From: an uncultured Flavobacteriaceae bacterium
GTDB taxonomy: Bacteria; Bacteroidota; Bacteroidia; Flavobacteriales; Flavobacteriaceae
Direction: 5' to 3'
Length of the DNA: 64,000 nucleotides
NCBI GenBank assembly: GCA_943789305.1
Contig: CALSTP010000001.1
Span: forward strand, 596,178 to 660,177
Shown here: positions 38,682 through 55,636 of the stretch, one piece after another
How the letters are laid out: each line of letters opens with the position of its first letter
How positions within the stretch are numbered: position 1 is the stretch's first letter
Notes under the pieces: generated by a model
What the model was told of the DNA's origin: nothing
The model's database searches: none
Seen by the model: the letters and a program-made list of their open reading frames with translations, nothing else
Program-made: the position numbers and the translations under genes

Positions 38682-40241
38682 ATGAAAAATAATTTTTCAC
38701 TACTGTTAACTTTAATTTTAAGCCAATCTCTTTTTGCACAAGAAATAAGCGCAGAAGGACCTTTTGATCAGCTTATAATTAGGGGAGTTACTCTTATTAA
38801 CGGAAATGGTGCACCACCCATGGGTCCGGTTGATGTTGTGGTTAAAAAAAATATAATTTCTAAGATATCTGTAGTTGGCTATCCAGGGGTTAAAATCAAT
38901 GAAGAAAGTAGACCAGAATTACTGGAGGGAGGAAGGGAAATCGATGCTCATGGAATGTATTTACTACCAGGGTTTATTGATATGCACGGGCATATTGGAG
39001 GAGTTTCTCAGGGCGCTGATTGGGATTATGTTTTTAAATTATGGTTAGCGCATGGCGTAACAACGGTTAGAGAGCCTAGTGGCCGAAGTAGAGCATGGGC
39101 GCTGGATTTAAAAAAGAAAAGCGCTGACAATGAAATTATTGCACCACGTATTGTACAATACACTGGTTTTGGATCAGGTTCAAAAACACCTATTATAACA
39201 GAGGAGCAAGCACGAGAATGGGTGCGTAAAAATGCGAAATCTGGCTCAGATGGGATCAAGTTTTTTGGAGCAGCTCCAAAAATTATGGAAGCAGCTTTGG
39301 ATGAAAACAACAAACTTGGATTAGGTTCAGCCTGCCATCATGCACAACTCAGTGTAGCGCGATGGAATGTTTTGCATTCCGCACGAGCTGGACTTACAAC
39401 CATGGAGCATTGGTATGGACTTCCCGAAGCACTTTTTGAAGACCGAACTGTACAAGATTATCCCCTAGACTACAACTATCAAAATGAACAACACCGTTTC
39501 GAAGAGGCTGGAAAATTATGGGAACAAGCAGCAGCGCCTTATTCCAACCATTGGAATTTGGTTATGGAAGAGTTATTGGCACTCGATTTCACTTTAGACC
39601 CAACGTTCAATATTTATGAGGCTAGCCGCGATTTACATCGTGCTCGAAGAGCAGAATGGCACGAGGATTATACCTTACCAAGCTTATGGCGTTTTTATCA
39701 ACCCAGTAAAATTTCTCATGGATCTTATTGGCATTTCTGGGGTACAGAACAAGAAATCAATTGGAAAAAGAATTTTGATTTATGGATGGCTTTTGTAAAT
39801 GAATACAAAAACCGTGGAGGAAGAGTCACAACAGGTTCTGACTCTGGATTTATTTTCCAACTCTATGGTTTTGCTTATGTAAGAGAGCTGGAGTTGCTTC
39901 GAGAAGCTGGATTCCACCCTCTTGAGGTAATTCGCTCCGCAACACTCAATGGAGCAGAGGCTCTCAAAATGGACAATCAAATAGGTTCTATTGAAGTTGG
40001 TAAATTAGCTGATATGATTTTGGTTGATTCGAACCCCTTAGAAAACCTTAAAGTCCTTTACGGTACAGGAGCTATTAAACTAACTGAAGACAATGAGGTC
40101 GTTAGGGTAGGAGGTGTGAAGTACACCATTAGTGATGGAGTGATTTACAATTCTAAAGTACTTTTAAAAGAAGTTAAAGCCATGGTGGACGAGGCTAAGA
40201 AAAAAGAAAATTTCACTATCAAACAGCCCGGAGTTGATTAA
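38682..40241 (+). CDS. Secreted amidohydrolase-superfamily metal-dependent hydrolase
   Basis: A 519-residue enzyme starting MKNNFSLLLTLILSQSLFAQ, a signal peptide; I chose the ATG at 38682 over an in-frame TTG at 38652 for this reason. The metal-binding HxH lies in GFIDMHGHIGG (about residues 96-106); other ligands are likely the His residues in SACHHAQ and TTMEHWYG and the Asp in TTGSDSGF. The NGAEALKMDNQIGSIEVGKLADMILVD tail is the usual closing beta-sandwich. Relatives include imidazolonepropionase-like and prolidase-like hydrolases of cyclic amides; the substrate is unknown. It stands alone on the plus strand and shares 4 bases with the end of the catabolic operon. Confidence 0.8.
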   Translation: MKNNFSLLLTLILSQSLFAQEISAEGPFDQLIIRGVTLINGNGAPPMGPVDVVVKKNIISKISVVGYPGVKINEESRPELLEGGREIDAHGMYLLPGFIDMHGHIGGVSQGADWDYVFKLWLAHGVTTVREPSGRSRAWALDLKKKSADNEIIAPRIVQYTGFGSGSKTPIITEEQAREWVRKNAKSGSDGIKFFGAAPKIMEAALDENNKLGLGSACHHAQLSVARWNVLHSARAGLTTMEHWYGLPEALFEDRTVQDYPLDYNYQNEQHRFEEAGKLWEQAAAPYSNHWNLVMEELLALDFTLDPTFNIYEASRDLHRARRAEWHEDYTLPSLWRFYQPSKISHGSYWHFWGTEQEINWKKNFDLWMAFVNEYKNRGGRVTTGSDSGFIFQLYGFAYVRELELLREAGFHPLEVIRSATLNGAEALKMDNQIGSIEVGKLADMILVDSNPLENLKVLYGTGAIKLTEDNEVVRVGGVKYTISDGVIYNSKVLLKEVKAMVDEAKKKENFTIKQPGVD

Positions 40242-41359
40242 TACTTGTGGTATCGAGCATAACGATCCAAATGGAAATTATAATCTCCGAACAAGCGCTG
40301 TAATACTCGAGCACGTTTAAAGTAAAACCCAATATTAACATCATCGGTAACTCCAATTCCGCCGTGCATTTGCATGGCTTCATTGGTTACTAATTTGATG
40401 GTTTTCCCTAATTTTGCTTTAGCTAAACTTGCTAGCTCATCCAAATTATCGGCTCCATTATCTAGAGCTTGAAGTGCAGTAATGACTATACTTTTGCAAA
40501 GCTCTATTTCAGAAAACATAATTGCGGCTCTGTGCTGGAGAGCTTGATAGGATCCAATTCGTTTCCCAAATTGTTCTCGTTCTTTAAGGTATTCAACAGT
40601 CTGACCAAAGGCCTCTTTTACTATTCCCAGCATTTCGGAAGCTAGACAAATTGATGCAGTGTTCAGGATTTGGTTCAACAATACAGTTCCATTTCCAACA
40701 TCACTGATACGATCATTTGCTGTTACTTCAACGTTGTCAAAAGTCACGGAAGCATAGGTTCCGGCATCCAGAAGAATTTCTGAAGTCAGTGAAACTCCCT
40801 TGGCAGATGAGTTGACCATAAATAAAGCAGGCTCTCCGTCATTGGTGCGAGCGACAACAATAAATGCATCTGCTCCAGCTCCATCAATTATCATGGTTTT
40901 TTTTCCAGAAATAAGGAAACCATCAGATGATTTTTTTGCTGAAGTTACAATTGCAGTCGGATCAAAATAGTTGTGTTCATCTTGTGCAAAAGCAATCCTT
41001 TTGAAACCATCCATGAGCATAGGAAGCCAAGTTTCTTTCAATTTTTGATTTGAAGAGTTATTCAGAGCTGTTGCTCCAAGAACAATTGATGAAAATAGAG
41101 GAGCTTTGGTTAATGTTTTTCCCATTTCTTCCAAGACCTGTCCCAAACCAACAAAACCAAAATCTAATCCGTCAAATTCCTCGGATATGGTTAGTGAGGT
41201 CCAACCCATATCAACAATTTGCTTCCAAAGGTTTTCATTAAAAGGTTCGTAATTACTATCTCTCAAATCTCTGAATTGCTCAACGGGAGCATTCATAGCT
41301 AAAAATTCTGCCGCAGAATCTTTAAGCAATTTTTGTTCTTCTGTTATTGTTAGTGCCAT
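40238..41359 (-). CDS. Acyl-CoA dehydrogenase subunit lacking the catalytic Glu (beta-type)
   Basis: A 373-residue member of the acyl-CoA dehydrogenase family. The C-terminal half has the FAD-contacting EREQFGKRIGSYQALQHR (about 260-277) and QMHGGIGVTDDVNIGFYFKRA near 335-355. Where catalytic dehydrogenases have the E-G-T motif, this protein reads RLFGDYNFHLD and has no Glu; its N-terminal half also lacks the usual T-E-P-x-x-G-S-D FAD motif (AQDEHNYFDPTAI instead). Those missing elements are present in the next upstream gene (9 bases apart), so the two very likely form an alpha2-beta2 enzyme, as known for steroid side-chain FadE pairs. Last gene of the operon. Confidence 0.85.
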   Translation of the reverse strand: MALTITEEQKLLKDSAAEFLAMNAPVEQFRDLRDSNYEPFNENLWKQIVDMGWTSLTISEEFDGLDFGFVGLGQVLEEMGKTLTKAPLFSSIVLGATALNNSSNQKLKETWLPMLMDGFKRIAFAQDEHNYFDPTAIVTSAKKSSDGFLISGKKTMIIDGAGADAFIVVARTNDGEPALFMVNSSAKGVSLTSEILLDAGTYASVTFDNVEVTANDRISDVGNGTVLLNQILNTASICLASEMLGIVKEAFGQTVEYLKEREQFGKRIGSYQALQHRAAIMFSEIELCKSIVITALQALDNGADNLDELASLAKAKLGKTIKLVTNEAMQMHGGIGVTDDVNIGFYFKRARVLQRLFGDYNFHLDRYARYHKY

Positions 41360-41368
41360 AAAATAGAA

Positions 41369-42562
41369 TTAAGATGGTAAGTTTAAAATACGTTTTGAAA
41401 TAATACCAAGTTGAACCTCAGAGGTTCCTCCTTCAATGGTGTTTCCTTTTGATCGGCAAAACATTCTTGTCTCAGAAGCAGCTTTTTTATTTTCACTTTC
41501 CCAAACAAGACCGTCTTTTCCTCTAATTGCAGTGAGTAATTCCATTCGTGCAACATTTTGTTCGGTTCCATAGTATTTGAAGAATGAGGACAAGGCTCCA
41601 GCATTTACACCCGTTTTAGCTTCATCTGTAATGCGTTGTATTGTCATTTCAAAAATTGCATCATTCATTTCTAATTCTGCAATTTCTGGCCTTAAAACTC
41701 CATCTGTAAGGATACCATCTTTTGTGGGAAGGTTCTCCAATGCAATTTGATGAACAGCTTTTCGGACATCCGTTTCACCGACACCTCCAATCATTTGACG
41801 CTCATGAGTAAGGAGGTACTTTGCAATTGTCCAACCATCATTCAAGGCACCAATTAGATTTTCTTTAGGTACTCTTACATTATCAAAAAATGTTTCACAA
41901 AAAGGAGATTTCCCACTGATTAGCTTAATCGGTCGGGTACTTACTCCTTCAGATGCCATATCAATTAGTAAAAAGCTAATCCCTGAGTGTTTTGGAGCGT
42001 CAAAATCTGTTCGAACTAAACAAAAAATCCAATCAGCCTTATCGGCATAAGAGGTCCAAACCTTAGAGCCACTAACCAAGTAGTGATCGCCTTTATCTTC
42101 GGCTTTAGTTTGTAATCCTGCTAGGTCACTTCCAGCATTGGGTTCGCTATAACCTTGACACCACCAAGTTTTCCCGGCCGTAATGTCGGGTAAGAAACTC
42201 ATTTTTTGTTCCTCAGTTGCAAACTTATGTAGCGCAGGTCCTAACATAGAAATCCCAAAACTGAAAATGGGTTTTCTGCATCCAATCCGAAACATTTCTT
42301 GAGTTAAAATATTATTCTCTTCAGGGCTTAAACCTCCCCCTCCATATTTGATATCCCAATAGGGAACAATCCATTTTTTTTCAAGCATTTTTTCAAACCA
42401 GATCTTTTGATCTTCATTGGAAAAAGATGCATTTCGCCCTCCCCAATAATAATCTGTAGAATCTTTTAATGGTAAGCGCATACTTTTTGGACAGTTTTCT
42501 TCAAGCCATTGTCGTGTTTCAAGTCTAAATTCTTTTAGATCTTTTGTAGTTGTGGTTTCCAT
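41369..42562 (-). CDS. Acyl-CoA dehydrogenase subunit with the catalytic Glu (alpha-type)
   Basis: A 397-residue acyl-CoA dehydrogenase. It carries the FAD-binding QGYSEPNAGSDLAGLQTKA (about 135-153) and ends with TIEGGTSEVQLGIISKRIL, in which Glu377 is the expected catalytic base that abstracts the alpha proton of the acyl-CoA. It lacks the R-x-Q-F-G and M-H-G-G-x-G elements that complete the FAD site; those are in the downstream partner gene. The pair thus looks like an obligate heteromer with one FAD site per alpha-beta dimer. Located 13 bases after the phosphotransferase gene, in the middle of the operon. Confidence 0.88.
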   Translation of the reverse strand: METTTTKDLKEFRLETRQWLEENCPKSMRLPLKDSTDYYWGGRNASFSNEDQKIWFEKMLEKKWIVPYWDIKYGGGGLSPEENNILTQEMFRIGCRKPIFSFGISMLGPALHKFATEEQKMSFLPDITAGKTWWCQGYSEPNAGSDLAGLQTKAEDKGDHYLVSGSKVWTSYADKADWIFCLVRTDFDAPKHSGISFLLIDMASEGVSTRPIKLISGKSPFCETFFDNVRVPKENLIGALNDGWTIAKYLLTHERQMIGGVGETDVRKAVHQIALENLPTKDGILTDGVLRPEIAELEMNDAIFEMTIQRITDEAKTGVNAGALSSFFKYYGTEQNVARMELLTAIRGKDGLVWESENKKAASETRMFCRSKGNTIEGGTSEVQLGIISKRILNLPS

Positions 42563-42575
42563 AATGTCTTATTAA

Positions 42576-43655
42576 TTAAAATAAATGATCTATTCTTTTC
42601 TTTTGAATGGCTTGTTGAGATAGCATGCCATAAAGTTCTACTATTTTGTCTAGATTTTTAAATCTTGGATCTTGTGTATGTCCCAAACTGTATCTATAAA
42701 ATATTTGTTGAACAATCACAGCAATTTTAAACACACCGAAAACAAAATAGAACTCAATATTGTCAACAGTTTTACCACTCTTTTGTTCGTAAAAACTTAC
42801 AATCTCACCTCGACTTGGATTTCCAGGTTTGGCTGTTAAACTCAATTGATTTTGAGCAATAAAATCAGGATCAGTTTCGTGAACCCAATACCCAAGGCTT
42901 GTCCCCAGATCCATTAGAGGGTCTCCCAGGGTGGTCATTTCCCAATCCAAAACTGCTTTTATATTCAATTCTTCATCTGGTGTTAATACCAGATTATCGT
43001 ATTTAAAATCGTTGTGAATCAAACTTGCACCTGAACTTGTTGGTATATTTTTGGAAAGCCAAAGGGCTGTTTTTTCCATAGATTTTACCTCGGATGTTTT
43101 TGATTTTTGATACCGTTTGCCCCAACCCTCAACTTGTCGAGTTGCATAGCCTTTTGGACTCCCTAAAGATTCCAGACCAATAGCTTTGTAATCGAGCTTA
43201 TGCAATTCTACAAGGGTGCTAACAAAATTTTCTGAAAGTGATTTGAACTGTTCTTTTGAGGGTAATTCCTCAGCTGGGGTTCCACCTCTTAAAATAGTTC
43301 CCTCAACCCGTTCCATTAAATAAAATGGAGCATCCAAAACACCTGCTTTTCTTTCAAATAGTATAGGTTTAGGAGCTTTGTCGTATGAACCGTTTAGCGC
43401 ACTTAGAATGGTATATTCTCGAGACATATCATGTCCAGATTTAATATTGACTCCAAATGGAGGCCGCCTTAATACATAATCTTTATTTGCAAAATTGATC
43501 AAGTAAGTTAAGTTTGAAAAACCAGAAGGGAATTGTTTTACGCTTAATTTCCCATTGGGTTCACTAAGTGCTTTACCTAAAAATTCCGATAAGGTTTCTT
43601 CATCTAAATTTTCTCCTTTTCGAACTTCTTTAGCTTTGTCCAGAGCTACACTCAT
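42576..43655 (-). CDS. APH-type phosphotransferase (ACAD10/11 N-domain or LvaA-like)
   Basis: A 359-residue protein with the aminoglycoside-phosphotransferase kinase fold: a glycine-poor ATP lobe with YVLRRPPFG (about 77-85), the catalytic loop HNDFKYDNLVL (about 214-224) with Asp and Asn, and the metal-binding DWEMTTLGDPLMDLG (about 239-253). In animal ACAD10/ACAD11 such a domain is fused to an acyl-CoA dehydrogenase and phosphorylates 4-hydroxyacyl-CoAs so that the dehydrogenase domain can eliminate phosphate; LvaA of the Pseudomonas levulinate pathway is comparable. Here it lies directly before the two dehydrogenase genes, which supports the same chemistry. Antibiotic resistance is unlikely. 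Confidence 0.82.
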   Translation of the reverse strand: MSVALDKAKEVRKGENLDEETLSEFLGKALSEPNGKLSVKQFPSGFSNLTYLINFANKDYVLRRPPFGVNIKSGHDMSREYTILSALNGSYDKAPKPILFERKAGVLDAPFYLMERVEGTILRGGTPAEELPSKEQFKSLSENFVSTLVELHKLDYKAIGLESLGSPKGYATRQVEGWGKRYQKSKTSEVKSMEKTALWLSKNIPTSSGASLIHNDFKYDNLVLTPDEELNIKAVLDWEMTTLGDPLMDLGTSLGYWVHETDPDFIAQNQLSLTAKPGNPSRGEIVSFYEQKSGKTVDNIEFYFVFGVFKIAVIVQQIFYRYSLGHTQDPRFKNLDKIVELYGMLSQQAIQKKRIDHLF

Positions 43656-43694
43656 TAATTTATGTTTAGATTATTTCAAAAATTTATTTTATCG

Positions 43695-44198
43695 CTACTT
43701 TTCTTTTTTTCCAGGTCCAGAATAAGCAATTGCAATAAATTCGGCAATACATGCGGGTTTTTCTTCTCCTTTCAATTCAAAAACAATTCCCATTTTATAT
43801 TTTGCTCCACCAGGGATGTCGTTACTTTCAATTAGTGAAACTCTTCCGCGAAAATAAGCACCAGACTTGGTAGCATTAGGGAAACGAACTTTATCTAAAC
43901 CATAATTAACCCCCATGGCGACATTCTCAATAGAAAAAGTATCATAACTGATTTTTGAGGCCATTGATAATACAAGGAAACCGTGTGCTATTGTTTTTTT
44001 ATACGGAGACAAGGTAGCACTTCGTTTTGGATCAGTATGAATCCACTGAAAGTCCTCAGTAGCATCAGCAAAGGTATTGATCCTTTCCTGAGTCATTTGC
44101 ATCCACTGGGTTAAACCAAGTTCTTTTCCTACATAGTTTTTTAATTCGCTTACTTCTTTTAAACGAGTAGCATATGCTTTATCAGTTTTTTGATCCAT
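43695..44198 (-). CDS. MaoC-like (R)-specific enoyl-CoA hydratase/dehydratase
   Basis: A 167-residue single hot-dog-fold protein. The hydratase-2 motif is visible as ADATEDFQWIHTDPKRS (about 44-60), where Asp and His form the catalytic pair, followed by IAHGFLVLSM (about 70-79). Such enzymes add water to trans-2-enoyl-CoA to give (R)-3-hydroxyacyl-CoA. It is the only intact hydratase in the cluster, which may explain why the crotonase relic near 54300 could be lost. It lies 10 bases after the SDR gene and 39 bases before the phosphotransferase gene. Confidence 0.85.
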   Translation of the reverse strand: MDQKTDKAYATRLKEVSELKNYVGKELGLTQWMQMTQERINTFADATEDFQWIHTDPKRSATLSPYKKTIAHGFLVLSMASKISYDTFSIENVAMGVNYGLDKVRFPNATKSGAYFRGRVSLIESNDIPGGAKYKMGIVFELKGEEKPACIAEFIAIAYSGPGKKEK

Positions 44199-44208
44199 TT
44201 CGTTTATT

Positions 44209-44979
44209 TTAGGTTAACATGTGACCACCATCTGCATTCAAAATTGCACCTGTTGTGTATGAGGAAGCATCTGAAGCTAGATATACAGCTAGACCTGCCA
44301 TTTCTATAGGTTCTGCAGCTCTTCTGAGTGGTAAATGATGTTCTACTTGTTTCATTAATTGTTCATTGCTCCAAAGCGCTTGACTGAATTTTGTTTTGAT
44401 TAAACCCGGACAAATAGCATTGGTTCGAATTCCATATTTTCCCCACTCGCTGGCTTGAGATTTTGTCAGCATAATTAATGCTGCCTTGCTTACCCCATAG
44501 AGGCCAAGTCCCATATTGGGTTTTAGACCCTCTACCGAAGCAATATTGATAATACTTCCTTTTTTCTTTTCTTTCATGTATGGGAAACATAGTTTTGCAA
44601 ATGAAAAACACGCCTTTACATTAACATCCATAATTTTATCAAAAACAGGATCATCAACGCCTTCAAGAGGTGCGTAAACAGGATTTGTAGCTGCATTATT
44701 GATTAGAATATCTACTCCTCCATAATGATTAACTGTTTTATCAATCAATGCTTTGCGTTGTTCTTCATCTCCTACATGACAAGCAATTCCAATTGTTTCT
44801 AGTCTTTTAGCTTTAAATTCATCAGCTACAGCATCTACAGCTTCTTGAGAACGACTGCTTACCACTACATGCGCCCCGTATTCGGCAAGTGCTTCAGCAA
44901 TTGCTTTTCCAATTCCTTTACTTGAGCCAGTAACTATGGCTACTTTTCCTTTTAAATCAAATAATTCTTTTACACTCAT
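44209..44979 (-). CDS. Short-chain dehydrogenase/reductase (SDR), DHRS4-like
   Basis: A 256-residue classical SDR. The NAD(P)-binding TGSSKGIGKAIA (about 17-28), NNAATNP (about 92-98), catalytic Ser in IINIASVEG near 145 and the YGVSKAAL motif near 160 (Tyr and Lys of the catalytic tetrad) are intact. It would oxidise or reduce a hydroxy/keto group; in this operon a 3-hydroxyacyl-CoA or an alcohol intermediate is likely. It follows the FabG-like SDR gene with 2 bases between and precedes the MaoC gene by 10. Confidence 0.83.
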   Translation of the reverse strand: MSVKELFDLKGKVAIVTGSSKGIGKAIAEALAEYGAHVVVSSRSQEAVDAVADEFKAKRLETIGIACHVGDEEQRKALIDKTVNHYGGVDILINNAATNPVYAPLEGVDDPVFDKIMDVNVKACFSFAKLCFPYMKEKKKGSIINIASVEGLKPNMGLGLYGVSKAALIMLTKSQASEWGKYGIRTNAICPGLIKTKFSQALWSNEQLMKQVEHHLPLRRAAEPIEMAGLAVYLASDASSYTTGAILNADGGHMLT

Positions 44980-44981
44980 AA

Positions 44982-45725
44982 TTACATTGGCATTGCTCCA
45001 CCATTTGCGTGGAGGGTTATTCCGTTAATAAATCCAGCTTGTTTTGAGGCAAGGTAGAGGTAGGCATACCCCATGTCTTCTGGGGTTCCAATCCGTGCAA
45101 CAGGAATCATTGCAATTCCAGCTTTTACAACTTCGTCAGGCATTGAGGCAGTCATCTCTGACTCTACAAATCCCGGAGCGACAGCATTTGCAGTTATTCC
45201 ATAACGTCCAACTTCTCTACAAAGTGCCCGAGTAAATCCTGCCACCCCTGCTTTGGTTGCTGAATAATTGGTTTGCCCAAAAGCACCTGTAAATCCATTG
45301 ATTGATGATGCTGAAATGATTCGTCCATAACGTGCTTCACGCATATGAGGAAGAACGGCTTGGGTAGTTGTGAACAAAGAGCTTAAATTTACATTCATTA
45401 CGGTATCCCACTCTTCTTGTGTCATTTTTAAGAAAGATTTGTCCCGCAATACTCCTGCATTGTTTATAAGAACATCTATTTTGCTGTGTTGTTGTATAAT
45501 TTCTTCTACTGCTGCATCAACTAATTTGCGATTTGTAACGTCAACTTTTTGAAAGAAAATTTTTCCGCCTTCAGCTTTTATTTTTGAGGCAGTTTCTGCT
45601 CCAGAGTCTCTGACATCCCACAAAGCTACGGTTGCCCCAGCTTCACAGAATACCTTACAAATCCCTTCCCCAATTCCTTGGGCTCCACCAGTGATGATGG
45701 CTACTTGTCCTTCTAAACTAATCAT
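44982..45725 (-). CDS. Short-chain dehydrogenase/reductase, FabG/PhaB-like
   Basis: A 247-residue classical SDR with TGGAQGIGEGIC (about 12-23), NNAGVLRDKSF (about 89-99), a catalytic Ser in SASSINGF near 141 and YSATKAGVAGF near 154. The NAGVLRDKSFLKMTQEEWDTVMNVNL segment resembles 3-oxoacyl reductases and the hydroxyacyl-CoA dehydrogenase domain of multifunctional enzymes, which act on (R)-3-hydroxyacyl-CoA, the product expected from the MaoC hydratase two genes downstream. One base separates it from the SMP-30-like gene. Confidence 0.85.
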   Translation of the reverse strand: MISLEGQVAIITGGAQGIGEGICKVFCEAGATVALWDVRDSGAETASKIKAEGGKIFFQKVDVTNRKLVDAAVEEIIQQHSKIDVLINNAGVLRDKSFLKMTQEEWDTVMNVNLSSLFTTTQAVLPHMREARYGRIISASSINGFTGAFGQTNYSATKAGVAGFTRALCREVGRYGITANAVAPGFVESEMTASMPDEVVKAGIAMIPVARIGTPEDMGYAYLYLASKQAGFINGITLHANGGAMPM

Positions 45726-45726
45726 T

Positions 45727-46794
45727 TTATTCTTGTTTTAATGTATAAATTCCAATTCCAGTTTCTTTTAAACTCCCAAGATAAAGCTTATTATCAACTT
45801 GTAAAACACTGGTTATGTAATAAAAATTTCCTTTGGGGTCTTGTAAATTGTATTTTAAATTTCCATTGAGATCAAAGCCTAAGACCATGGCGTAGGGTTC
45901 GGGAATTGCTCCCTGTATTACAGCGTTTGGTAAACGTAAAAGAATTGTTCTTAAAAAGGGCTTAGTGGTCAGTGGTTCAACGGTTACTGCTCTTTGACTT
46001 GGGATAGCAACCCAAAAAGTTCCATTAGAATAAGTTATGTTGTCAGGGTATCCGGGCAATTCATTATTAAAGATTTCAACACTTCCTTTTTTGGGTCCTT
46101 GAAGCCAATATTTTTTGATTTCAATTCCAAAAGTCTCGCTAAAAATAAAGTAATCTTCTTGTTCACTCAAGGCAATACCGTTTGGAAAAAAGAGGTCTTT
46201 TAAAATGATTTTGCTTTTTTTTGTTTTTAAATCATATGTTATTATTCTGCCAGAAGGTCGTTGTTCCCAGAATTCATTTTCAATTTCGATTGGATGTCTT
46301 TGTGTGGCGTCTGAAAAATAAATAAGTCCTTCTTTGTTTATAGCAAGATCGTCTGCAAATTGAATGGGAGTGCCCTCAATTTCATTTAAAAGAGTATTGA
46401 AATTTCCTAGACTATCCATTGCTATTAGTCCCATTTTTTGATCTGCAATAATAAGCCAACCATTGGGAGCAAACTTCATTCCTAGAGGTCGCCCTCCCGT
46501 ATTCCCAAGTACCTTTTGATTGTTTCCGTTTGCATCGAATTGGATGATTTCTCCATTTTCGAGTCCGGTATAAAATTTATTGAGACTGTCACGAACTATT
46601 GCCTCTGGTCCGAGTCCTGCATTTGTTTTTATGATTTGAGTTTGAGCTAACATTTCATTGACCTTAAAAGCTCCATCCATTCCAGGATGCGCGGGTGATT
46701 CTCGAGCGAGAGGTTCTAGAGATATAGGATAAAAACCAAGATAAAGTATCCCAATCGCTAGTAAAATTCGGATTGTTTTAAATATTTTTTTCAT
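45727..46794 (-). CDS. SMP-30/paraoxonase-like beta-propeller lactonase-type protein
   Basis: A 355-residue protein with an N-terminal membrane anchor or signal (RILLAIGILYLGFYPI) and a six-bladed beta-propeller typical of the SMP-30/strictosidine synthase/APMAP group: GPEAIVRDSLNKFYTGLENGEII (about 63-85), FADDLAINKEGLIYFSDA (about 146-163), FPNGIALSEQEDYFIFSE and PGYPDNITYSNGTFWVA (about 245-261). The Asp/Asn residues at the blade tips are the usual calcium ligands. Enzymes of this fold include gluconolactonases and paraoxonases, which open lactones. I infer a lactonase at the periplasmic face for the cluster's substrate; an esterase is also possible. Confidence 0.75.
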   Translation of the reverse strand: MKKIFKTIRILLAIGILYLGFYPISLEPLARESPAHPGMDGAFKVNEMLAQTQIIKTNAGLGPEAIVRDSLNKFYTGLENGEIIQFDANGNNQKVLGNTGGRPLGMKFAPNGWLIIADQKMGLIAMDSLGNFNTLLNEIEGTPIQFADDLAINKEGLIYFSDATQRHPIEIENEFWEQRPSGRIITYDLKTKKSKIILKDLFFPNGIALSEQEDYFIFSETFGIEIKKYWLQGPKKGSVEIFNNELPGYPDNITYSNGTFWVAIPSQRAVTVEPLTTKPFLRTILLRLPNAVIQGAIPEPYAMVLGFDLNGNLKYNLQDPKGNFYYITSVLQVDNKLYLGSLKETGIGIYTLKQE

Positions 46795-46813
46795 TAGAAG
46801 ATTATTTATTAAT

Positions 46814-47792: not shown

Positions 47793-47922
47793 TAGAATAA
47801 ATATAAATTTTGTCTTTGTTTATTTTATTTTTGAATGTACTTAATCTGTCTTTCTTGCTTTTTTGAAAGACTGTGTTGCTTTGTGGTTTTTAGAAAAAGA
47901 AATGTTTAAGACATGATATAAT

Positions 47923-48666
47923 TTATCCAGCCTCCATTCCACCATCCATTACCAGTGAATGTCCATTTACAAATGAAGCTTTGTCCGAAAGTAACCAAAC
48001 AATCGTGTTTGCGGCTTCTTCTGGCTTTCCTAGTCTTTTTAGTGGAGTTCGATTATTTTTAACAAAGTCCAATACCTTATCCGGTATGGGCTGAATAATG
48101 TCGGTTTCTAGAAATGACGGACAAATTCCATTAACTCTGATGTTATGACGTCCATATTCTAAAGCTGCAGTTTTGGTTAAACCCAAAACTCCATGTTTTG
48201 CTGCAGAATAGTGACCTCCGTAGCTTACTCCTTTGATACCTGCAATAGACGATACATTAACAATGCTTCCTCCACCTTGTGGTAATAATATTTTTATTTG
48301 TGCTTGTAAACAATAAAAGACACTTTCTAGGTCTACAGCAAGGACTTTTTTCCAGTCTTCGGTAGTCATCAGGTGTAGAGGGGTTAATGTACCACCAATA
48401 CCTGCGTTATTGACAAAATAATCAATTTGTTTGTGATCTTTTAGGGCTTCTTCATGAACTACATTTACTTGTTTTTGATCAGAAACATCAAGCATGTAGC
48501 TGGTAACTTTGCCTCCTTTTTTTTCAATGTATTCTTTTGTTTGATCGAGAGCTTCTGGATCGATATCCGTTATAACTACATAGCAACCAGAGGATGAAAG
48601 AGCAACTGCTGTTGCTCTTCCGATTCCTTTGGCAGCTCCAGTAATGAATGCTGTTTTATTGTCCAT
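47923..48666 (-). CDS. Short-chain dehydrogenase/reductase (SDR)
   Basis: A 247-residue classical SDR. It has TGAAKGIGRATA (about 10-21), the Asp of VVITDID near 39 that favours NAD over NADP, NNAGIGGTLTPL (about 89-100), Ser in VNVSSIAGIKG near 140 and YSAAKHGVLGL near 155. The closest look is to glucose/cyclohexanol-type and 2,5-dichlorohydroquinone-type alcohol dehydrogenases, but substrate cannot be told. It follows the TonB receptor gene by 27 bases; 130 bases with no gene separate it from the PECR-like SDR. Confidence 0.83.
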   Translation of the reverse strand: MDNKTAFITGAAKGIGRATAVALSSSGCYVVITDIDPEALDQTKEYIEKKGGKVTSYMLDVSDQKQVNVVHEEALKDHKQIDYFVNNAGIGGTLTPLHLMTTEDWKKVLAVDLESVFYCLQAQIKILLPQGGGSIVNVSSIAGIKGVSYGGHYSAAKHGVLGLTKTAALEYGRHNIRVNGICPSFLETDIIQPIPDKVLDFVKNNRTPLKRLGKPEEAANTIVWLLSDKASFVNGHSLVMDGGMEAG

Positions 48667-48693
48667 ACCAGATCAATCTGTAATAAGAGTATG

Positions 48694-51666
48694 TTACAGA
48701 TCAAATGTGATTTTCCCAATGATACGTCTACCAATTACGGGCATCCCTGGGAATGCACTGTATTTAAAGTCTAAAATATTTGATCCAGTAAGATCTATAC
48801 GCATACCATTTTCAAAACGGTAACCAATATTAGCATCCCATAGGTTTTTTTCGTCGGTTATACCTCCCCAAACACCTTGGTTAGATTGAAATGCTTCGTC
48901 GTATTGGTATGAAACACTTCCATAGACACCACCTTTGCTATATCTAGCTCCAGCTCTCATTTTCTTTTGTGGAGAGTTAAGAAAAGAAGGAAATGGCAAA
49001 TCATCGTCATCACTTTCTCCTGGTATCCAAGTATTTTGACTAACATATGAACCATTTGCCCATAATGTAATTTCATCCGTAGCAAAATATTCAAATGCAA
49101 CATCAATACCGTAGTGGCTTCGCGTAGCATCAGCAAATTTTCTATAACCAGCAGGAATATGGGTTACTCCATCCCCTTGTGGTACTCGTTGAGATTCAAT
49201 AGTTCCAAATAGTGGGAATAATTGGCCAGCTAAATCTTCAAATCCTTCAGCTCCAGCTTGGAAAGTTCCCCCAGCCAACAGGCCAAGACCTCCGGCTGCT
49301 GAGGCAATTGTTGGTGCAAGAGCCGGAACCCCTGGGACACCTCCACCAGCAACAGTAGCAAATGGTAAACCAGCTCCAGTTGCAATAGCCTGATAAGCTG
49401 CAGTCAATTGAGTTGTAATAGTAGGAGCTACTGCAGCTCCTAATTCAGTACCAACAGTATTTGCAAATGCGGAAGCACTATATCCACCAATGCCATACGT
49501 TGGACCAAGGCCAGTAAAGGACGTAAATCCTTTTCTTTCATAGGTGTAAACATCAACCATTACTTTTAATTTATTAGCAATGATACCGTTATATCCTATT
49601 TCAAAAGAATTCAAAGTTCCCAATTGAGCTTTTGGAGTATCTATTCCACCTCCTGTGAATGTTTGAGCGGGATTAAAAATATTGTACCCTGGTGACAATG
49701 CAGCTAACGTTCCTGAAGGGCTAAATCCAGCAAGTTGTCCTGTCAAGATTGATAAAAAATCAACACCTGTAGCAGCTCCTAAAGCTCTTAAGTCAGCAAA
49801 GCGAGGATCCAGATTGTAAGCTTGAGTCATTCCAGGAATTGTTAATGGATTTGATAGTAATACAGGATACAACATTGCGTTAGGGACAGAAGTAGATCCC
49901 TGAGGCAGGGTTTGTCCTCCTAGAAGTGGAAATTCAATAGGAGCATTGGCATCAAAGTTTTGTGCCTCTATCTCTCCTGCTAACCAAACGTCATATACGC
50001 CTGGTACAATTGTGTTTACAGGGAAATCAATAAATGCGTTCAATGCGGATGGCGGAATAGTAGCCGAGTTGTAGGAAGCCCTTATGGAGTTGTTTTCATT
50101 CAGTTTATAAACTAAAGCCACACGTGGAGAGAACCCGTTCTCATCCAGTATGTTAAAGGTGTCATATCGAGCTGCATAAGTTAATTCTAATTTTTCTGAA
50201 AGTATTGAAGTACCCTGAACATATGCACCCATAATTTTGTAATCATCGTCATCATCATTACGACCATATAGAGTATAGTCTGAATCTCCACGAATATCTC
50301 TAAGATCTGTCCCAACAGTAAAGTTTGTATTTAAAAATCCAGGAACATCAAAGTTGTACTGAACTTGAGCTTCAAAAGAATCACGTTGAGCAACTTGTCG
50401 AAAACCAGAGTCATACAAGAAAGTTGGGTTGTTTTCATCACCTCCATCGTTGTAATTATAAAAGACTTGTGCAAATAGGCCACCAGTTTGAACACGTGCT
50501 TGTGCCCAATAATCTTTACCATTTTGGTATCCGGACCCCTGGGAGTTAAAAAACAATGCTCCTCCTTCTGACATCCCTCCAGAAACAAAAGCACTAGTAT
50601 TATCGTTTGGCCTTAATTCTAAGTGCGCGTTTACAGAAAAGTTTTCGTATTTAGTTGCAAGTGGGTTTCCATCATTGTTGTCATCTAAGTCTTGAAAACT
50701 TAATAGTACATCACCTCTTTGAGTTGGGTCAACCATTTTATTTCTAACTACAGGCTGAGCTATATCATTAGCGAACCCGCTTATGATTGATGCACTTTTA
50801 ATAGGATCCATCTCGAAGTCATTTCCTGCTGACCACTTTGCATTTACTTTAAATCCAATTTTTTTATTTTCTGAAGCAAAAGCGTGGCGTAAAGCTGCTC
50901 CTCGAGTATTAAGTGTACCAGACAACAATTCAATAGTTGTTCCAGGATGATCAATCGCACTTTTTGAAATCCAATGAACTACCCCTGAAGCTACACCAGG
51001 TCCATAAAGAGCAGAAGCTGCTCCACGAACTACCTCTATTCTTTCAATATCAATATTGGATAATCCGGACTGTTGTGTGAAAAATGTACCTGCTGCTGGT
51101 GTTGCTAAGAATCGATAATCTAACATAGGTAAAGTACTAGTTCCAAATACACCAGAACCTGCTCTCATCTCAATATTAATACTATTCGCTGATTGTTGTT
51201 GAATTTGGACACCTGGAATATACTGTAAATGACGAACAGGGTCAACTGCAACTGCAGAGTTTTCGATGTCTTTCGCCGATATAAGACTAACAGACGAAGG
51301 CGCATCTTGCACTTTTTGAGGTTTTCTTGAAGCTGTTACGACAATCTCATCTAAATTTTGTCCAGCATCTAAAAGAACTGTGATCTGCTGATCATTTTCA
51401 GTAACTTCCACAGATTTAGTCTCAAATCCAATTGAACTGATTTCAATAGTGAAAGGAGTTTGCATACTGGTCTTCAATTCAAAATTTCCATCAAAGTCGG
51501 AAACAGTACCCTCAGAAGTCCCCTGTATAACAACGTTAACCCCAGGGATTACCTCGTTGGTTTCACTGTCAGAAACAACTCCACTGAAGGAGGTTTGCCC
51601 TTGAAGAAAATTCACAAATAACAGCAAAGTAATCGCCAGTGCTTGTGTAAATAATTTTGTTTTCAT
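48694..51666 (-). CDS. TonB-dependent receptor with carboxypeptidase-like domain and hydrophobic loops
   Basis: A 990-residue outer-membrane receptor. After the signal peptide (ending about LQGQ) come a CarboxypepD_reg domain (about 27-105, FSGVVSDSETNEVIPGVNVV), a plug (about 110-235; VRGAASALYGPGVASGVV) and a barrel ending SNILDFKYSAFPGMPVIGRR and KITFDL. Two inserts in the barrel are unusual: near residues 620-665 (LSILTGQLAGFSPSGTLAAL) and 739-806, a stretch made mostly of Ala, Gly, Pro, Val, Leu and Thr. No SusD partner is adjacent. Its place in the catabolic operon suggests uptake of the operon's hydrophobic substrate. Confidence 0.9.
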   Translation of the reverse strand: MKTKLFTQALAITLLLFVNFLQGQTSFSGVVSDSETNEVIPGVNVVIQGTSEGTVSDFDGNFELKTSMQTPFTIEISSIGFETKSVEVTENDQQITVLLDAGQNLDEIVVTASRKPQKVQDAPSSVSLISAKDIENSAVAVDPVRHLQYIPGVQIQQQSANSINIEMRAGSGVFGTSTLPMLDYRFLATPAAGTFFTQQSGLSNIDIERIEVVRGAASALYGPGVASGVVHWISKSAIDHPGTTIELLSGTLNTRGAALRHAFASENKKIGFKVNAKWSAGNDFEMDPIKSASIISGFANDIAQPVVRNKMVDPTQRGDVLLSFQDLDDNNDGNPLATKYENFSVNAHLELRPNDNTSAFVSGGMSEGGALFFNSQGSGYQNGKDYWAQARVQTGGLFAQVFYNYNDGGDENNPTFLYDSGFRQVAQRDSFEAQVQYNFDVPGFLNTNFTVGTDLRDIRGDSDYTLYGRNDDDDDYKIMGAYVQGTSILSEKLELTYAARYDTFNILDENGFSPRVALVYKLNENNSIRASYNSATIPPSALNAFIDFPVNTIVPGVYDVWLAGEIEAQNFDANAPIEFPLLGGQTLPQGSTSVPNAMLYPVLLSNPLTIPGMTQAYNLDPRFADLRALGAATGVDFLSILTGQLAGFSPSGTLAALSPGYNIFNPAQTFTGGGIDTPKAQLGTLNSFEIGYNGIIANKLKVMVDVYTYERKGFTSFTGLGPTYGIGGYSASAFANTVGTELGAAVAPTITTQLTAAYQAIATGAGLPFATVAGGGVPGVPALAPTIASAAGGLGLLAGGTFQAGAEGFEDLAGQLFPLFGTIESQRVPQGDGVTHIPAGYRKFADATRSHYGIDVAFEYFATDEITLWANGSYVSQNTWIPGESDDDDLPFPSFLNSPQKKMRAGARYSKGGVYGSVSYQYDEAFQSNQGVWGGITDEKNLWDANIGYRFENGMRIDLTGSNILDFKYSAFPGMPVIGRRIIGKITFDL

Positions 51667-51723
51667 AGTGTTTGTTTTTAATTATTATTGGTTTTCATTA
51701 CATAAAAAAATTAATGGTATGGA

Positions 51724-52419
51724 TTAAGATTCAAGGGTTATGTTTATTTGTAGATGCCTATCTAAAAAATAATCTAATTTATTTGTAAATGTTGTATGCT
51801 TTAAAAAAAAGTTTGGGTCTGGGCCGTTTCTGAATTTAATTTCATGGGTTAAGAGTTCAATATTCTGAATATAGTTGAGCCTAGTAGGATCATTTGACCC
51901 AAAGAAATGACTGAAAAACAGATTATTATTCATGAAATTTAATAAATAATTTCCAACAATTTTATTTTTACATAAAACACCAACAAAGTGTTTTTTCATA
52001 GACGAACTAAAAGCTGTTATCTGCGGGAAATAATGATACCCCGACAACATTATAGAAGTTAAAGATAAAGGAACTTTTGGAAACTTAAGCAAAAAACGCT
52101 CAGCAATCATACCTTGTATTAGTGTTCTTATGTAATGAGGTTGGTTTATTTTTAAGAATTTTGACCCCTCCAGGGTATCATAAAAGATGTTTTCAAGGGC
52201 ATAACATATTTTTTTTACGCAGTTGATTATCCAACCAAAAAATTTATTAGTCAATTTTACATTACTGTTGAAGGCATATCTGCTTTTTGGAGGAATGTTT
52301 GATTTGATGCAATTAAATTTTGCTTTGCAAATAAAATCTTCAATCATTAATTCAAATTCATCAGATTTAAACAACATTAATAATAGTGTGATTTGTGTAA
52401 TTAAGCAAATTGTTAGCAT
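51724..52419 (-). CDS. Unrecognised basic protein between ligase and receptor genes
   Basis: A 231-residue protein, rich in Lys, Phe, Asn and Ile, that I cannot assign. The N-terminus MLTICLITQITLLLMLF is hydrophobic; an internal Met15 would remove most of that. The middle (about 110-165, LIQGMIAERFLLKF to HFVGVLCKNKIVGNY) faintly recalls the layout of an AraC-type helix-turn-helix C-terminal domain, but the fit is too weak to call. It starts 9 bases after the acyl-CoA ligase gene and ends 57 bases before the TonB receptor, so it is an operon member; a regulator or an accessory uptake factor are both possible. Confidence 0.55.
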   Translation of the reverse strand: MLTICLITQITLLLMLFKSDEFELMIEDFICKAKFNCIKSNIPPKSRYAFNSNVKLTNKFFGWIINCVKKICYALENIFYDTLEGSKFLKINQPHYIRTLIQGMIAERFLLKFPKVPLSLTSIMLSGYHYFPQITAFSSSMKKHFVGVLCKNKIVGNYLLNFMNNNLFFSHFFGSNDPTRLNYIQNIELLTHEIKFRNGPDPNFFLKHTTFTNKLDYFLDRHLQINITLES

Positions 52420-52428
52420 TGTGTATGT

Positions 52429-54105
52429 TTATGATTCCCACAAAACTGATTCATTTGCTTTATGCCATTTTTCAAAATTGCTTTGATATTTTTGATCAAC
52501 TTTATTTCTTTTAATTTTAAGAGTTGGGGTGACCAGCTCATTTTCAACAGACCACTCATCTTTTACAACGATTAAGGTAGATATTTTTTTGTAATTATCA
52601 AGTTTTGCATTGATGTCTTCTAATTTTTTTTCGAGGTTTTGAGTTAATTTTCTTGGATCAATTGTCTTTCCAACCTCTGAAAGTACAGCTAAACAAATTG
52701 GTTGTGGGATTCCCATTCCTGTAACACATATTTGTTCAAATTCTATGATGTCTGCAAAATAATTTTCAATAGTTAGGGGTTCTATGTATTTTCCTTTTGT
52801 GGTTTTAAAATTATCTTTTACTCGTCCAGTTATGAATAAATACCCCTCCTCGTCAATGTGTCCTTGGTCTCCTGTATGCAGCCAACCGTTTTTGAACACT
52901 TCAGCAGTTATTTTGGGGGCTTTGAAATAGCCTTTCATCAAGAATTCTCCTCGCATCAATATTTCATTGTTTTCTTGGTCAATCGAAATTTCAACACCAT
53001 CTTGAGCACGACCAACAGAGCCGGGTTTCCTAGTTTCTCTTGCATCCAATTGGGTACAAATAGCTAAATTTTCGGTCATTCCGTAGCCGTTGGTGATGTG
53101 GATGTCTATATCTCTAAACCACACCCTTTGACTTTCCATCATCGGAGCTGCTCCAGAAACAATTGCTCTTGCTTTACTTAGACCCAAACTTTTTTTGAAT
53201 TTCTTTTTTAAAAACCCTGAAATAAGGGGGATACTCAAAAGTTTGTTTAGTTTTTTTTGTGGGATTTTTCCAAGAATTCCCATTTGAAATTTAGTCCATA
53301 TTCTGGGAACTGCAAAAAACACAGTAGGTTGGGTATCGCTGAGGTTTTTTGCAAAAGTATCTAGAGATTCCACAAAAGACATGGTTCCTCCATATCGAAA
53401 ACACGTATGTTCTACTACGATTCTCTCTGCAATATGGTTTAGAGGTAAATAGCTAAAAAAGTCGTTGTTCCCATCCAGATTTATTTTAAGTACATTAGAT
53501 CCCTCGATCAATATTTTTGTAGCATCGTATGCTCTGTAATCAATTACAACACCTTTAGGGGTTCCTGTTGTTCCAGAAGTAAAAATAATTGTCCAGATAT
53601 CATCCAGTTTAGGAACATTTGGTTTTTCAATTGGTTGAAAATTATTGATGAAATCATTCCATTGATGGGCGTTGCTTATTTTTGAATGTTCTTTGTAGTG
53701 GGGAAATGCTATTACAGGCATATCATCACGCACTCCACTTTTCATTTCCTCCCAATTTTCAAGTTTTCCAGCAAAAAGGGCATCGACCTCACCGAATTCA
53801 AGAAGGTTTTTTATTTCATTTGATTTAAGTGTAGGAAAAAAGGGCACACTTACATAGCCCGCCATCATTATTGCAAGATCTGCAATTATCCATTCTCTAC
53901 AGTTTTTAGATACTAAACCGATATGAGCTTGATCTCTTAAGCCAAGGGATTTTAATCCTGCCGCTAATTTTCGAGCTAAATGTCCAACTTCTCCCCAAGT
54001 GTAAATTTCCCATTGATCTCCAAAGGGTTGCTTTAGAAAAGGTCTGTTGTGTAGTTTTTTTTCACACTCATAAAATTTAAGTTCTAAAGTATCAGCATTA
54101 TTCAT
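52429..54105 (-). CDS. AMP-forming long-chain-type acyl-CoA synthetase
   Basis: A 558-residue adenylate-forming enzyme. The P-loop FTSGTTGTPKGVV lies near residues 172-184, the GYGMTE motif near 343-348, the hinge-region HTGDQGHIDEEGYLFITGR near 425-443 with the Asp that binds ribose, and a Lys-containing TPTLKIKRN near 530 that would supply the catalytic Lys. The long FAA1-like pattern (YEKLH-type start, IAERIVVEH, FFAVPRIWTK) points to fatty-acid or other hydrophobic carboxylate substrates. It is the first gene of the operon and so activates the imported acid to its CoA thioester. Confidence 0.88.
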   Translation of the reverse strand: MNNADTLELKFYECEKKLHNRPFLKQPFGDQWEIYTWGEVGHLARKLAAGLKSLGLRDQAHIGLVSKNCREWIIADLAIMMAGYVSVPFFPTLKSNEIKNLLEFGEVDALFAGKLENWEEMKSGVRDDMPVIAFPHYKEHSKISNAHQWNDFINNFQPIEKPNVPKLDDIWTIIFTSGTTGTPKGVVIDYRAYDATKILIEGSNVLKINLDGNNDFFSYLPLNHIAERIVVEHTCFRYGGTMSFVESLDTFAKNLSDTQPTVFFAVPRIWTKFQMGILGKIPQKKLNKLLSIPLISGFLKKKFKKSLGLSKARAIVSGAAPMMESQRVWFRDIDIHITNGYGMTENLAICTQLDARETRKPGSVGRAQDGVEISIDQENNEILMRGEFLMKGYFKAPKITAEVFKNGWLHTGDQGHIDEEGYLFITGRVKDNFKTTKGKYIEPLTIENYFADIIEFEQICVTGMGIPQPICLAVLSEVGKTIDPRKLTQNLEKKLEDINAKLDNYKKISTLIVVKDEWSVENELVTPTLKIKRNKVDQKYQSNFEKWHKANESVLWES

Positions 54106-54161
54106 TCGTAAAATAGTTTTTTATTTGTTCAATTTCATTAGTTTGTTTTCTTCTTGTGGCG

Positions 54162-54195
54162 CAAAAAGATAGTCTTTTTTTAGATGCCAGTCAAA
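54162..54195 (-). promoter_or_regulatory. Probable promoter of the catabolic operon
   Basis: On the minus strand, TTTG (54195-54192) is followed after 20 bases by TATCTTTTTG (54171-54162), close to the Bacteroidota -33/-7 pattern. Transcription would start near 54155, about 50 bases before the acyl-CoA ligase start codon. Confidence 0.4.
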
Positions 54196-54292
54196 CAAAA
54201 ATTTGTGGATTGGTTTATGAAGTAGTAACTTCGAAAGCTTTTGAGGAGTGAACCTCAAAATGAATAAGTGAAATTGTTTCAAAGCCTCCTAG

Positions 54293-54406
54293 AATAATCC
54301 GTTTGGAAATGAAATTTATCAAGAACTTTTGGACTGCAAAAAAACCCTAGCAGCAATGCTAGAAAAAATAATCGCATCTCAGGATGCAAAAGAGGGAATA
54401 GCCTAG
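54293..54406 (+). pseudogene. Relic of an enoyl-CoA hydratase (crotonase) C-terminus
   Basis: In the 349-base gap between the ligase and thiolase genes the plus strand reads, in one frame, NNPFGNEIYQELLDCKKTLA, then AMLEKIIASQDAKEGIA before a TAG at 54404. S-x-D-A-K-E-G-I is the conserved C-terminal motif of crotonase-family hydratases, normally followed by A-F-L-E-K-R-K-P. Upstream, a TAG at 54290 closes the frame and no further homologous sequence is evident. So only about 37 residues of a former gene remain, in the orientation of the thiolase. The match is short, hence the modest confidence. Confidence 0.5.
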
Positions 54407-54454
54407 ATAAAAAAAAGCGCTATGAAAATTGAAATAAATAATAAATATTAAAAA

Positions 54455-55636
54455 ATGAGAGAAGCTTTAATTGTATCAACTGCCAGAACCCCTATAGGGA
54501 AAGCCTACCGAGGTGCCTACAACAATACCAATGCACCAACTTTAGGAGCAATGGCAATAGAGGAAGCAGTTGAGCGCTCAGGTGCTTCAAAAGATCAGAT
54601 TGGAGACGTTCTTATGGGTGCTGCCCTACAACAAGGAACTACAGGAGGTAATATTGGTCGGATGGCTGCTATGGCAGCAGGACTACCTTCATCGGTTAGT
54701 GGGATGTCTATTGATCGACAATGTTCCTCAGGAATGATGGCTATTGCTACTGCTGCAAAACAAATTATCTGTGACGGAATGGATATTGCTGTAGGTGGTG
54801 GAATTGAATCGATTAGTTTGGTTCAAAACGACAAAATGAACGTGAGTCGTATGGTCGATAAAGCATTGGTTGCAAAACAACCCCATATTTATATGCCCAT
54901 GTTACAAACTGCTGAGGTGGTGGCAAATCGTTACAAAATCAGTAGAGAAATGCAGGATGCTTATGCTTTACAAAGTCAACAAAGAACAGCTGCAGCTCAG
55001 GAAGCTGGTAAGTTTGACGATGAAATTATTGAAACCACAACCTCTATGGGTGTTATGGATAAAGAAACCAAAGAAATCAGCTTTCATGATATTACCCTAA
55101 ATAAAGATCAAGGGAATCGTCCTGATACTGTAATCGAAGGGCTTTCTGCATTAAACCCAGTTATAGAAAACGGATTCATTACTGCTGGAAATGCTAGTCA
55201 ATTATCGGATGGGGCTTCAGCTTGTGTATTGATGGAAGCTGCTATAGCTGCAAAGCATTCGGTTGCTCCCCTTGGGATTTACAGAGGAATGGCTGTTGCC
55301 GGATGTGAACCCGACGAGATGGGTATTGGACCGATTTATGCGATTCCAAAATTATTAAAACAACACGGGCTTAAGATGTCCGATATCGGACTTTGGGAAT
55401 TGAATGAGGCTTTTGCAGTTCAAGTATTGTATTGCCAAAAGCATTTGGGAATCCCCAATGAGCTTCTTAATGTAAATGGAGGTGCTATATCCATTGGGCA
55501 TCCCTACGGAATGTCCGGTTCTAGAATGGTAGCTCATGCGCTTATCGAAGGAAAACGAAGAAATGCTAAATACGTTGTTTCTACCATGTGTGTAGGTGGT
55601 GGAATGGGAGCAGCAGGGTTGTTTGAAGTAATTTAA
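54455..55636 (+). CDS. Acetyl-CoA acyltransferase (thiolase)
   Basis: A 393-residue thiolase that cleaves 3-oxoacyl-CoA with CoA to acetyl-CoA and a shortened acyl-CoA. The nucleophile is Cys90 in [11 protein letters not shown]; the C-terminal motifs [14 protein letters not shown] (about 343-356, His) and [13 protein letters not shown] (Cys near 379) complete the active site. The length fits degradative thiolases (about 390). It is transcribed divergently from the catabolic operon, which otherwise has no thiolase, and converges on the cyclase gene. It is the final beta-oxidation step for that operon by inference. Confidence 0.92.

Follow-up and report, generated by a model that had tools for sequence, protein, structure and literature searches.

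A gene cluster in a 64,000-nucleotide stretch of an uncultured Flavobacteriaceae genome (the window) encodes an APH-fold kinase (P0003, 42576-43655) beside two acyl-CoA dehydrogenases (P0001 and P0002, 40238-42562), which raises the question of which dehydrogenase acts with the kinase, and on what. An earlier interpretation made from the letters alone (the sequence-only reading) proposed that the kinase phosphorylates a 4-hydroxyacyl-CoA and that the paired dehydrogenases take part in eliminating the phosphate. Our analysis points to the phosphate route as likely, with another dehydrogenase than the one first proposed. We favor with some confidence a scheme in which the kinase phosphorylates 4-hydroxyacyl-CoA, a flavoenzyme of ACAD11 type encoded at a remote locus eliminates the phosphate, and the cluster feeds beta-oxidation. 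The scheme is based on homology, key residues, genome-wide linkage and gene presence by locus; from these we infer what the enzymes catalyze, a pairing across loci, loss and replacement as the direction in which genes changed, and the substrate.

P0003 belongs to the Pfam family APH. Its top match in the Protein Data Bank (PDB), 9o56 (E = 5.9e-85), is named only as an aminoglycoside phosphotransferase, and mouse ACAD11 (8v3v, E = 6.3e-48) comes next, followed by 3dxp (E = 1e-42). Among solved proteins of known activity, the ACAD11 kinase domain is therefore the closest to its APH fold. Section 7 of PMC12440821 gives D220, N225, R176 and R86 as ACAD11 kinase residues. In our alignment, where the chain index runs one below the numbering of that paper, HNDFKYDN of P0003 pairs with HGDFKLDN of ACAD11, and D216, N221 and R173 correspond to D220, N225 and R176, so that the catalytic Asp and Asn and the Arg of the ACAD10-11 kinase are all present. 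R79 of P0003 precedes the alphaC Glu and has no match by number to R86. A protein search at E values up to 0.001 found no other such kinase in the genome, which comprises 2.08 Mb in two contigs and is 89.98% complete. The matches to ACAD11 and the retained catalytic Asp and Asn bear out the earlier assignment of the APH protein to the ACAD11 kinase type, and it is likely a 4-hydroxyacyl-CoA kinase.

The two dehydrogenases next to the kinase gene are the partners proposed first. They share an operon with it, with gaps of 9-13 bp, and a gene for the larger subunit lies near the kinase in 29 of 80 related loci (the best 80 of 455 relatives). Their active sites argue against a role in phosphate elimination. 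In ACAD11, the 4-phospho group is held by R626, H634 and R637, next to the catalytic D753; Ala or Leu at these three positions is most disruptive and abolishes activity, and R637K impairs the enzyme only partly (PMC12440821, section 7). Aligned with ACAD11, neither window dehydrogenase has this ACAD11/LvaC set of three residues plus catalytic Asp, and a coding pattern for RIHHCMR gave no match across the window with up to two mismatches allowed. Where the catalytic Asp of ACAD11 aligns, the only acidic residue of P0001 is that of the motif GDYN, and P0002 (41369-42562) carries EGGTSEV, the Glu of which is probably catalytic. Structural databases place the two proteins elsewhere: the best PDB match of P0002 is Tcur3483 (6wy9_A/6wy8_B), then 4x28_A, and that of P0001 is Tcur3481 (6wy8_A), with 4x28_D tenth. 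The two adjacent subunits are thus unlike, and each finds its best match in its counterpart within one solved pair. Enzymes of the Tcur3481-3483 and 4x28 type are alpha2beta2 assemblies that act on steroid-CoA; we take 4x28 to be ChsE4-ChsE5, with a steroid role. In 23 of the 80 related loci, genes for both the larger subunit and an ACAD11-type enzyme are found near a single kinase, so their roles appear to be separate. Moreover, G009 and G007, two genomes that retain the kinase, have no dehydrogenase pair between the kinase and amidohydrolase genes. P0001 and P0002 were therefore rejected as phosphate eliminators, since the ACAD11/LvaC residues are absent and the best matches are Tcur3481 and Tcur3483, and we regard their pairing with the kinase as highly improbable.

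Many relatives encode a better candidate. Between their MaoC and kinase genes lies a third dehydrogenase that carries RLGPGRIHHCMR and an Asp base; the signature of this partner acyl-CoA dehydrogenase (ACAD) is RLGPGR(I/V)HHCMR plus the Asp base, and the copy in locus L025 is closest in the PDB to human ACAD11 (2wbi, E = 4.8e-81). At the MaoC-kinase junction of the window this in-cluster gene is absent, and the two genes lie 39 bp apart. The same genome holds a paralogue on the minus strand at G000:C1:661776-662993 (which would be window 65599-66816), about 1.6 kb past the window end and 22,359 bp from the kinase gene. This remote ACAD carries RLGPGRVHHCMR and the Asp, matches ACAD11 (8v3u, E = 1.2e-136, 459 bits) and has equivalents of R626, R631, H634, R637 and D753. 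The Ile/Val form of the signature pattern has a single match in the genome, outside the window. We also considered a genome with no ACAD11-type enzyme at all and rejected it: the Ile-only pattern found none, and both the Ile/Val pattern and a protein search found one.

The remote gene is flanked by genes for a short-chain dehydrogenase/reductase (SDR) and a histidine phosphatase on one side and for an MFS carrier and an enoyl-CoA hydratase (ECH) on the other. Histidine-phosphatase-like genes recur near the kinase or the ACAD11-type gene (L133 8258-8971; also L046, L048, L051, L057, L066 and L073), with 30-41% identity outside the genus, and such a phosphatase may clear dead-end phospho-intermediates. 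A gene of the acyl-CoA carboxylase carboxyltransferase type (L133 13536-15116), divergent from the remote ACAD locus, could process propionyl-CoA of odd-chain products.

Kinase and signature are closely coupled across genomes. We surveyed two partly overlapping samples, 60 relatives (kinase cut-off E < 1e-100) and 249 Flavobacteriaceae (E up to 1e-40), searching for the signature with a degenerate pattern coding for G-R-(I/V)-H-H-C-M-R. Among the 60 relatives, 20 have the kinase and 19 the signature; 19 have both, one has the kinase alone (G003, where a contig end cuts the kinase gene) and 40 have neither, with one weak kinase match (G025, E = 4e-4) left out of the count. Among the 249 Flavobacteriaceae, the kinase occurs in 29 and the signature in 30; 29 have both, one the signature alone (G242, 68% complete) and 219 neither, so that the signature is present in 29/29 kinase genomes vs 1/220 others. 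A reversed control pattern had no matches in either the 60 or the 249 genomes, and Fisher tests, uncorrected for relatedness, gave 5e-37 (249 genomes) and 1e-14 (60 genomes). In all but one of the 29 genomes, a distance of 418-1960 bp separates kinase and signature; the exception is the window's genome. At 55 of the 80 related loci, which include assemblies labelled Acidobacteriota, KSB1, Chloroflexota and Rhodothermales, the distance from the kinase to a signature ACAD is at most 4.5 kb.

The genes adjoining the kinase also bear on its substrate. In some related clusters the adjoining protein matches vinylacetyl-CoA Delta-isomerase (6vjr, E = 1.6e-227) and the gamma-aminobutyrate-metabolism dehydratase/isomerase 1u8v (E = 2.8e-170), and we read it as a probable 4-hydroxybutyryl-CoA dehydratase. 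The 1u8v/6vjr enzyme is presumably AbfD. Eight of the 80 loci have the dehydratase gene next to the kinase. A full copy is found in 5 of the 60 relatives, adjoining the kinase in four members of the window's genus (G008, G010, G011 and G013) and elsewhere in G036; none was found in the window's genome. In G005 (L028 9806-9994), two short dehydratase end pieces between MaoC and kinase genes form an internally deleted remnant. This enzyme performs the same net reaction on 4-hydroxyacyl-CoA by unrelated radical chemistry, and its presence beside the kinase is a second pointer to 4-hydroxyacyl-CoA. The phosphate route of the sequence-only reading is thus strongly backed both by linkage of the kinase to an ACAD11-type dehydrogenase and by these adjoining dehydratase genes. 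The dehydratase genes, together with the conserved phosphate-binding residues of the ACAD, also speak against the idea that the kinase acts on some other hydroxylated CoA ester or small molecule, with the ACAD11 linkage reflecting a different two-step reaction, and we consider that idea very unlikely.

Within the genus, the location of the partner gene varies. Our sample comprised 19 draft genomes, including that of the window, at 65-95% completeness. Of the 17 with the kinase, seven have the in-cluster ACAD (G002, G004, G008, G011, G013, G014 and G018), nine the remote type (G000, G001, G005, G007, G009, G010, G015, G016 and G017), one neither (G003, 85% complete) and none both. The in-cluster ACAD appears as two pieces in G004 and runs into a contig end in G014, and G001 has a second remote-type ACAD adjoining a second kinase. 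G009 (L036) is a cultured relative, Arcticimaribacter forsetii AHE01FL. G006 (65% complete) lacks kinase and signature. G012 retains the rest of the cluster, including the propeller described below, without in-cluster ACAD and kinase, and has a complete kinase-ACAD pair at the second, remote locus in the order ACAD, SDR, kinase, phosphatase; the kinase is not in that row in the window's genome. On a kinase tree of these 17 sequences and five outgroups, the two ACAD states need four changes. Partner exchange between loci is probable from these patterns. Absence of the in-cluster ACAD would represent loss rather than a gene never gained, judging from its wider occurrence.

These observations suggest the following pathway. 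A lipophilic acid with a 4-hydroxyl, or one gaining it during beta-oxidation, would enter via the TonB receptor and be ligated to CoA. In some rounds, the two-subunit acyl-CoA dehydrogenase (40238-42562) would desaturate the chain, with hydration by MaoC, oxidation by the FabG-like SDR and thiolysis to follow. Where a 4-hydroxyacyl-CoA arises, its 4-hydroxyl would be phosphorylated by the APH kinase, and the ACAD11/LvaC-type flavoenzyme would eliminate the phosphate to give 2-enoyl-CoA. The flavoenzyme is missing from the MaoC-APH site that it occupies in relatives, and the paralogue 22 kb away would supply its function. The genes of the cluster are as follows.

40238-41359, minus: acyl-CoA dehydrogenase P0001, smaller-subunit type (PimD/Tcur3481-like) by profile and PDB match; not of ACAD11/LvaC type
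41369-42562, minus: acyl-CoA dehydrogenase P0002, larger-subunit type (PimC/Tcur3483-like) by profile and PDB match; not of ACAD11/LvaC type
42576-43655, minus: APH-fold kinase P0003, predicted 4-hydroxyacyl-CoA kinase (LvaA/ACAD10-11 N-domain type), with ACAD11 match and D216/N221
43656-43694, minus: MaoC-kinase junction, 39 bp; in many relatives the site of genes for ECH, an ACAD11-type ACAD and/or 4-hydroxybutyryl-CoA dehydratase
43695-44198, minus: MaoC-type hydratase (Pfam)
44209-44979, minus: SDR, PRK07035-like (NCBIfam, under the cut-off of that model), recurring in relatives' clusters
44982-45725, minus: FabG-like SDR (NCBIfam), predicted 3-hydroxyacyl-CoA dehydrogenase
45727-46794, minus: six-bladed propeller P0007 (Str_synth/SGL; strictosidine-synthase-like/paraoxonase fold) with N-terminal hydrophobic helix, candidate lactonase/esterase
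46986-47792, minus: SDR; 2,4-dienoyl-CoA reductase is the second-best NCBIfam model, under cut-off
47923-48666, minus: SDR, 42% identical to the SDR adjoining the remote ACAD11-type gene
48694-51666, minus: TonB-dependent receptor (domain search)
51724-52419, minus: probably decayed alpha/beta-hydrolase gene (comparison with L023)
52429-54105, minus: acyl-CoA ligase, long-chain type (AMP-ligase; Pfam/NCBIfam)
54455-55636, plus: thiolase (acetyl-CoA C-acyltransferase), divergent (Pfam/NCBIfam)

The open reading frames (ORFs) described in the sequence-only reading are all present with the ends given there, and Pfam and NCBIfam searches confirmed their families, including the two acyl-CoA dehydrogenases, APH protein, propeller, TonB receptor and ligase. 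The tight packing attributed to the run holds from the propeller gene to 40238, with gaps of 1-39 bp, and is broken by gaps of 191 and 130 bp flanking the SDR at 46986-47792. That reading also knew of no such full set in Bacteroidota. Much of the gene order is found in other Flavobacteriaceae, so the set is not unique, and because it recurs in relatives the cluster is beyond chance; the divergent arrangement of thiolase and ligase, for example, is also seen in G005, G013 and G016. In the contig collection, the genome has its closest relatives in Candidatus Arcticimaribacter and in other assemblies of Flavobacteriaceae or Flavobacteriales, and PMC9122927 places Arcticimaribacter as NS5_F within the NS5 marine group. 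Among the literature matches listed, mostly titles and the starts of abstracts, none describes such a cluster for Bacteroidota, and neither "phosphotransferase" nor "kinase" occurs in the portion of PMC12543098 examined.

Two positions in the cluster differ from those of relatives. In several of them a crotonase (ECH) follows MaoC or is fused with it, and this gene is missing here; apparent MaoC-crotonase fusion ORFs of about 440 residues are seen in L025 (7493-8806), L064 (7367-8683) and L068 (7392-8726), the two being separate or the crotonase missing in others. The ORF at 51724-52419 has no Pfam match. It is 44% identical over 276 residues to an intact 340-residue alpha/beta hydrolase of L023 (913-1932), and a 304-residue stretch at 51% identity is present in L141 of G013. 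Two features of the L023 protein are not retained in this ORF, the GASMGG motif and 49 contiguous residues. At 0.34-0.37, the dN/dS of the ORF exceeds the values of the other cluster genes compared, yet stays below 1. It is probably a decayed alpha/beta-hydrolase gene, doubtful as a working gene.

The sequence-only reading further assigned lactone opening to the propeller. A model of P0007 built from a 10-sequence alignment (pLDDT 82.4) consists of an N-terminal helix and a six-bladed propeller with a fold like those of paraoxonase and strictosidine synthase. Foldseek ranked strictosidine synthases first (E = 1e-21), including rice TGW6 (3e-20), with further matches to paraoxonase-1 (PON1, 5e-13), DFPase, a putative gluconolactonase and the propeller lactonase RPA3624 (8djf, 2e-12). 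E64, D148, N205, D251 and N252, which by their positions in the family are candidate Ca ligands, are invariant across the 10 propeller sequences. The propeller occurs in 13/19 genus genomes vs 1/41 other relatives (28% identity). From this nearly genus-only occurrence, lactone opening would be a lineage-specific addition. The fold thus agrees with the earlier proposal, and the narrow distribution weakens it; lactone opening by a candidate propeller lactonase is plausible.

Several observations weigh against the scheme we favor. No exact signature lies within 4.5 kb of the kinase in 25 of the 80 loci, although some of these contigs end nearby. Nine of the 25 are within the genus (L023, L027-L029, L031 and L035-L038); among the 16 outside it, L078 has such an ACAD without the exact motif and the other 15 have none within the locus. 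The full pathway is not conserved, as the larger subunit is near the kinase only in the 29 loci given above and the propeller, found in 10 of the 80, is absent from many kinase loci. Only two independent pairs on well-supported branches of the kinase tree bear on partner exchange (sign test p = 0.5). The remote ACAD has ECH, MFS and SDR neighbors of its own and may serve another substrate, and in a genome about 90% complete a further ACAD could be missed.

Finally, the kinase (dN/dS 0.23 and 0.14) ranks near the top of the intact cluster genes, which range from 0.02 to 0.23 (compared with L023 and L037; not all genes in both, thiolase left out), and selection on it is possibly relaxed. This value, the absent in-cluster ACAD and two-subunit dehydrogenases of a kind familiar from steroid catabolism would fit a cluster for beta-oxidation of steroid, terpenoid or other ring or branched side chains, whose kinase lingers as a dying remnant once the in-cluster ACAD was lost. 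The kinase is intact, however, with catalytic residues kept and dN/dS well below 1, and the ACAD signature accompanies it in 29/29 and 19/20 kinase genomes of the two samples. We consider such a remnant unlikely, though the substrate itself may be a steroid.

The phosphate route through the remote flavoenzyme resembles known systems in part. As in the lva operon of Pseudomonas putida, a separate APH-type kinase (LvaA) and ACAD11-type flavoenzyme (LvaC) are predicted to convert 4-hydroxyacyl-CoA to enoyl-CoA; here, kinase and flavoenzyme are encoded at separate loci, and the neighbors are a TonB receptor, a two-subunit dehydrogenase and a propeller. This comparison draws on published descriptions (PMC11342911, PMC12440821). 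Mammalian ACAD10/ACAD11 resemble the kinase (167 bits) and the remote ACAD in their kinase and dehydrogenase domains, with the published active-site set, and differ in that domains fused in mammals are encoded here by two unlinked genes. The window dehydrogenases are also related to pimeloyl-CoA dehydrogenase PimC/PimD, with model scores (270 and 236 bits) far below the equivalog cut-offs (624 and 653). Strictosidine-synthase-like, paraoxonase, DFPase and gluconolactonase propellers share the fold and perhaps the Ca-ligand-like residues of P0007 and are named for reactions other than its candidate one.

Outside these subjects, the cluster is flanked by an amidohydrolase gene (38652-40241, plus), its neighbor in 11 of the 16 genus loci, of which five end before this point, and by a PF04199 cyclase-family hydrolase gene (55695-56453, minus), found in one of four other 14-kb stretches checked (G016). 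Three adjacent, very large surface-protein-like ORFs occupy window 26894-38304 (minus), with DUF285 repeats, Laminin_G_3, TSP_3 and a Por secretion tail; their frames overlap, hinting at a frameshift or split gene. The sole Rfam match is a cobalamin riboswitch (RF00174, 105 bits) at window 8766-8959 (plus), 5' of an ORF at 9021-10877 and outside the locus. Scans for promoters and terminators gave numbers near those that chance predicts (50 vs 49.0 expected; 14 vs 11.8), and a tRNA scan found none.

What is new here is probably a variant of the LvaA/LvaC-ACAD10/11 pathway with partner exchange between loci. It ties the mammalian ACAD10/11 route, explained only recently, to widespread ocean bacteria, and it corrects which dehydrogenase to take as the candidate for phosphate elimination. 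That kinase and flavoenzyme genes go together almost without exception across Flavobacteriaceae genomes predicts function. More tentatively, we speculate that 4-hydroxyacyl-CoA dehydration in marine Flavobacteriaceae may be a module exchangeable across loci and chemistries, with a cross-locus kinase and flavoenzyme here and a radical [4Fe-4S] dehydratase in the operon of sister species, and that the substrate of the operon might be a common lipid, lactone or polyester from algae, broken down via both short and longer 4-hydroxyacyl-CoAs. Partner exchange and the alternative dehydratase would offer a natural experiment on which 4-hydroxy acids these bacteria eat.

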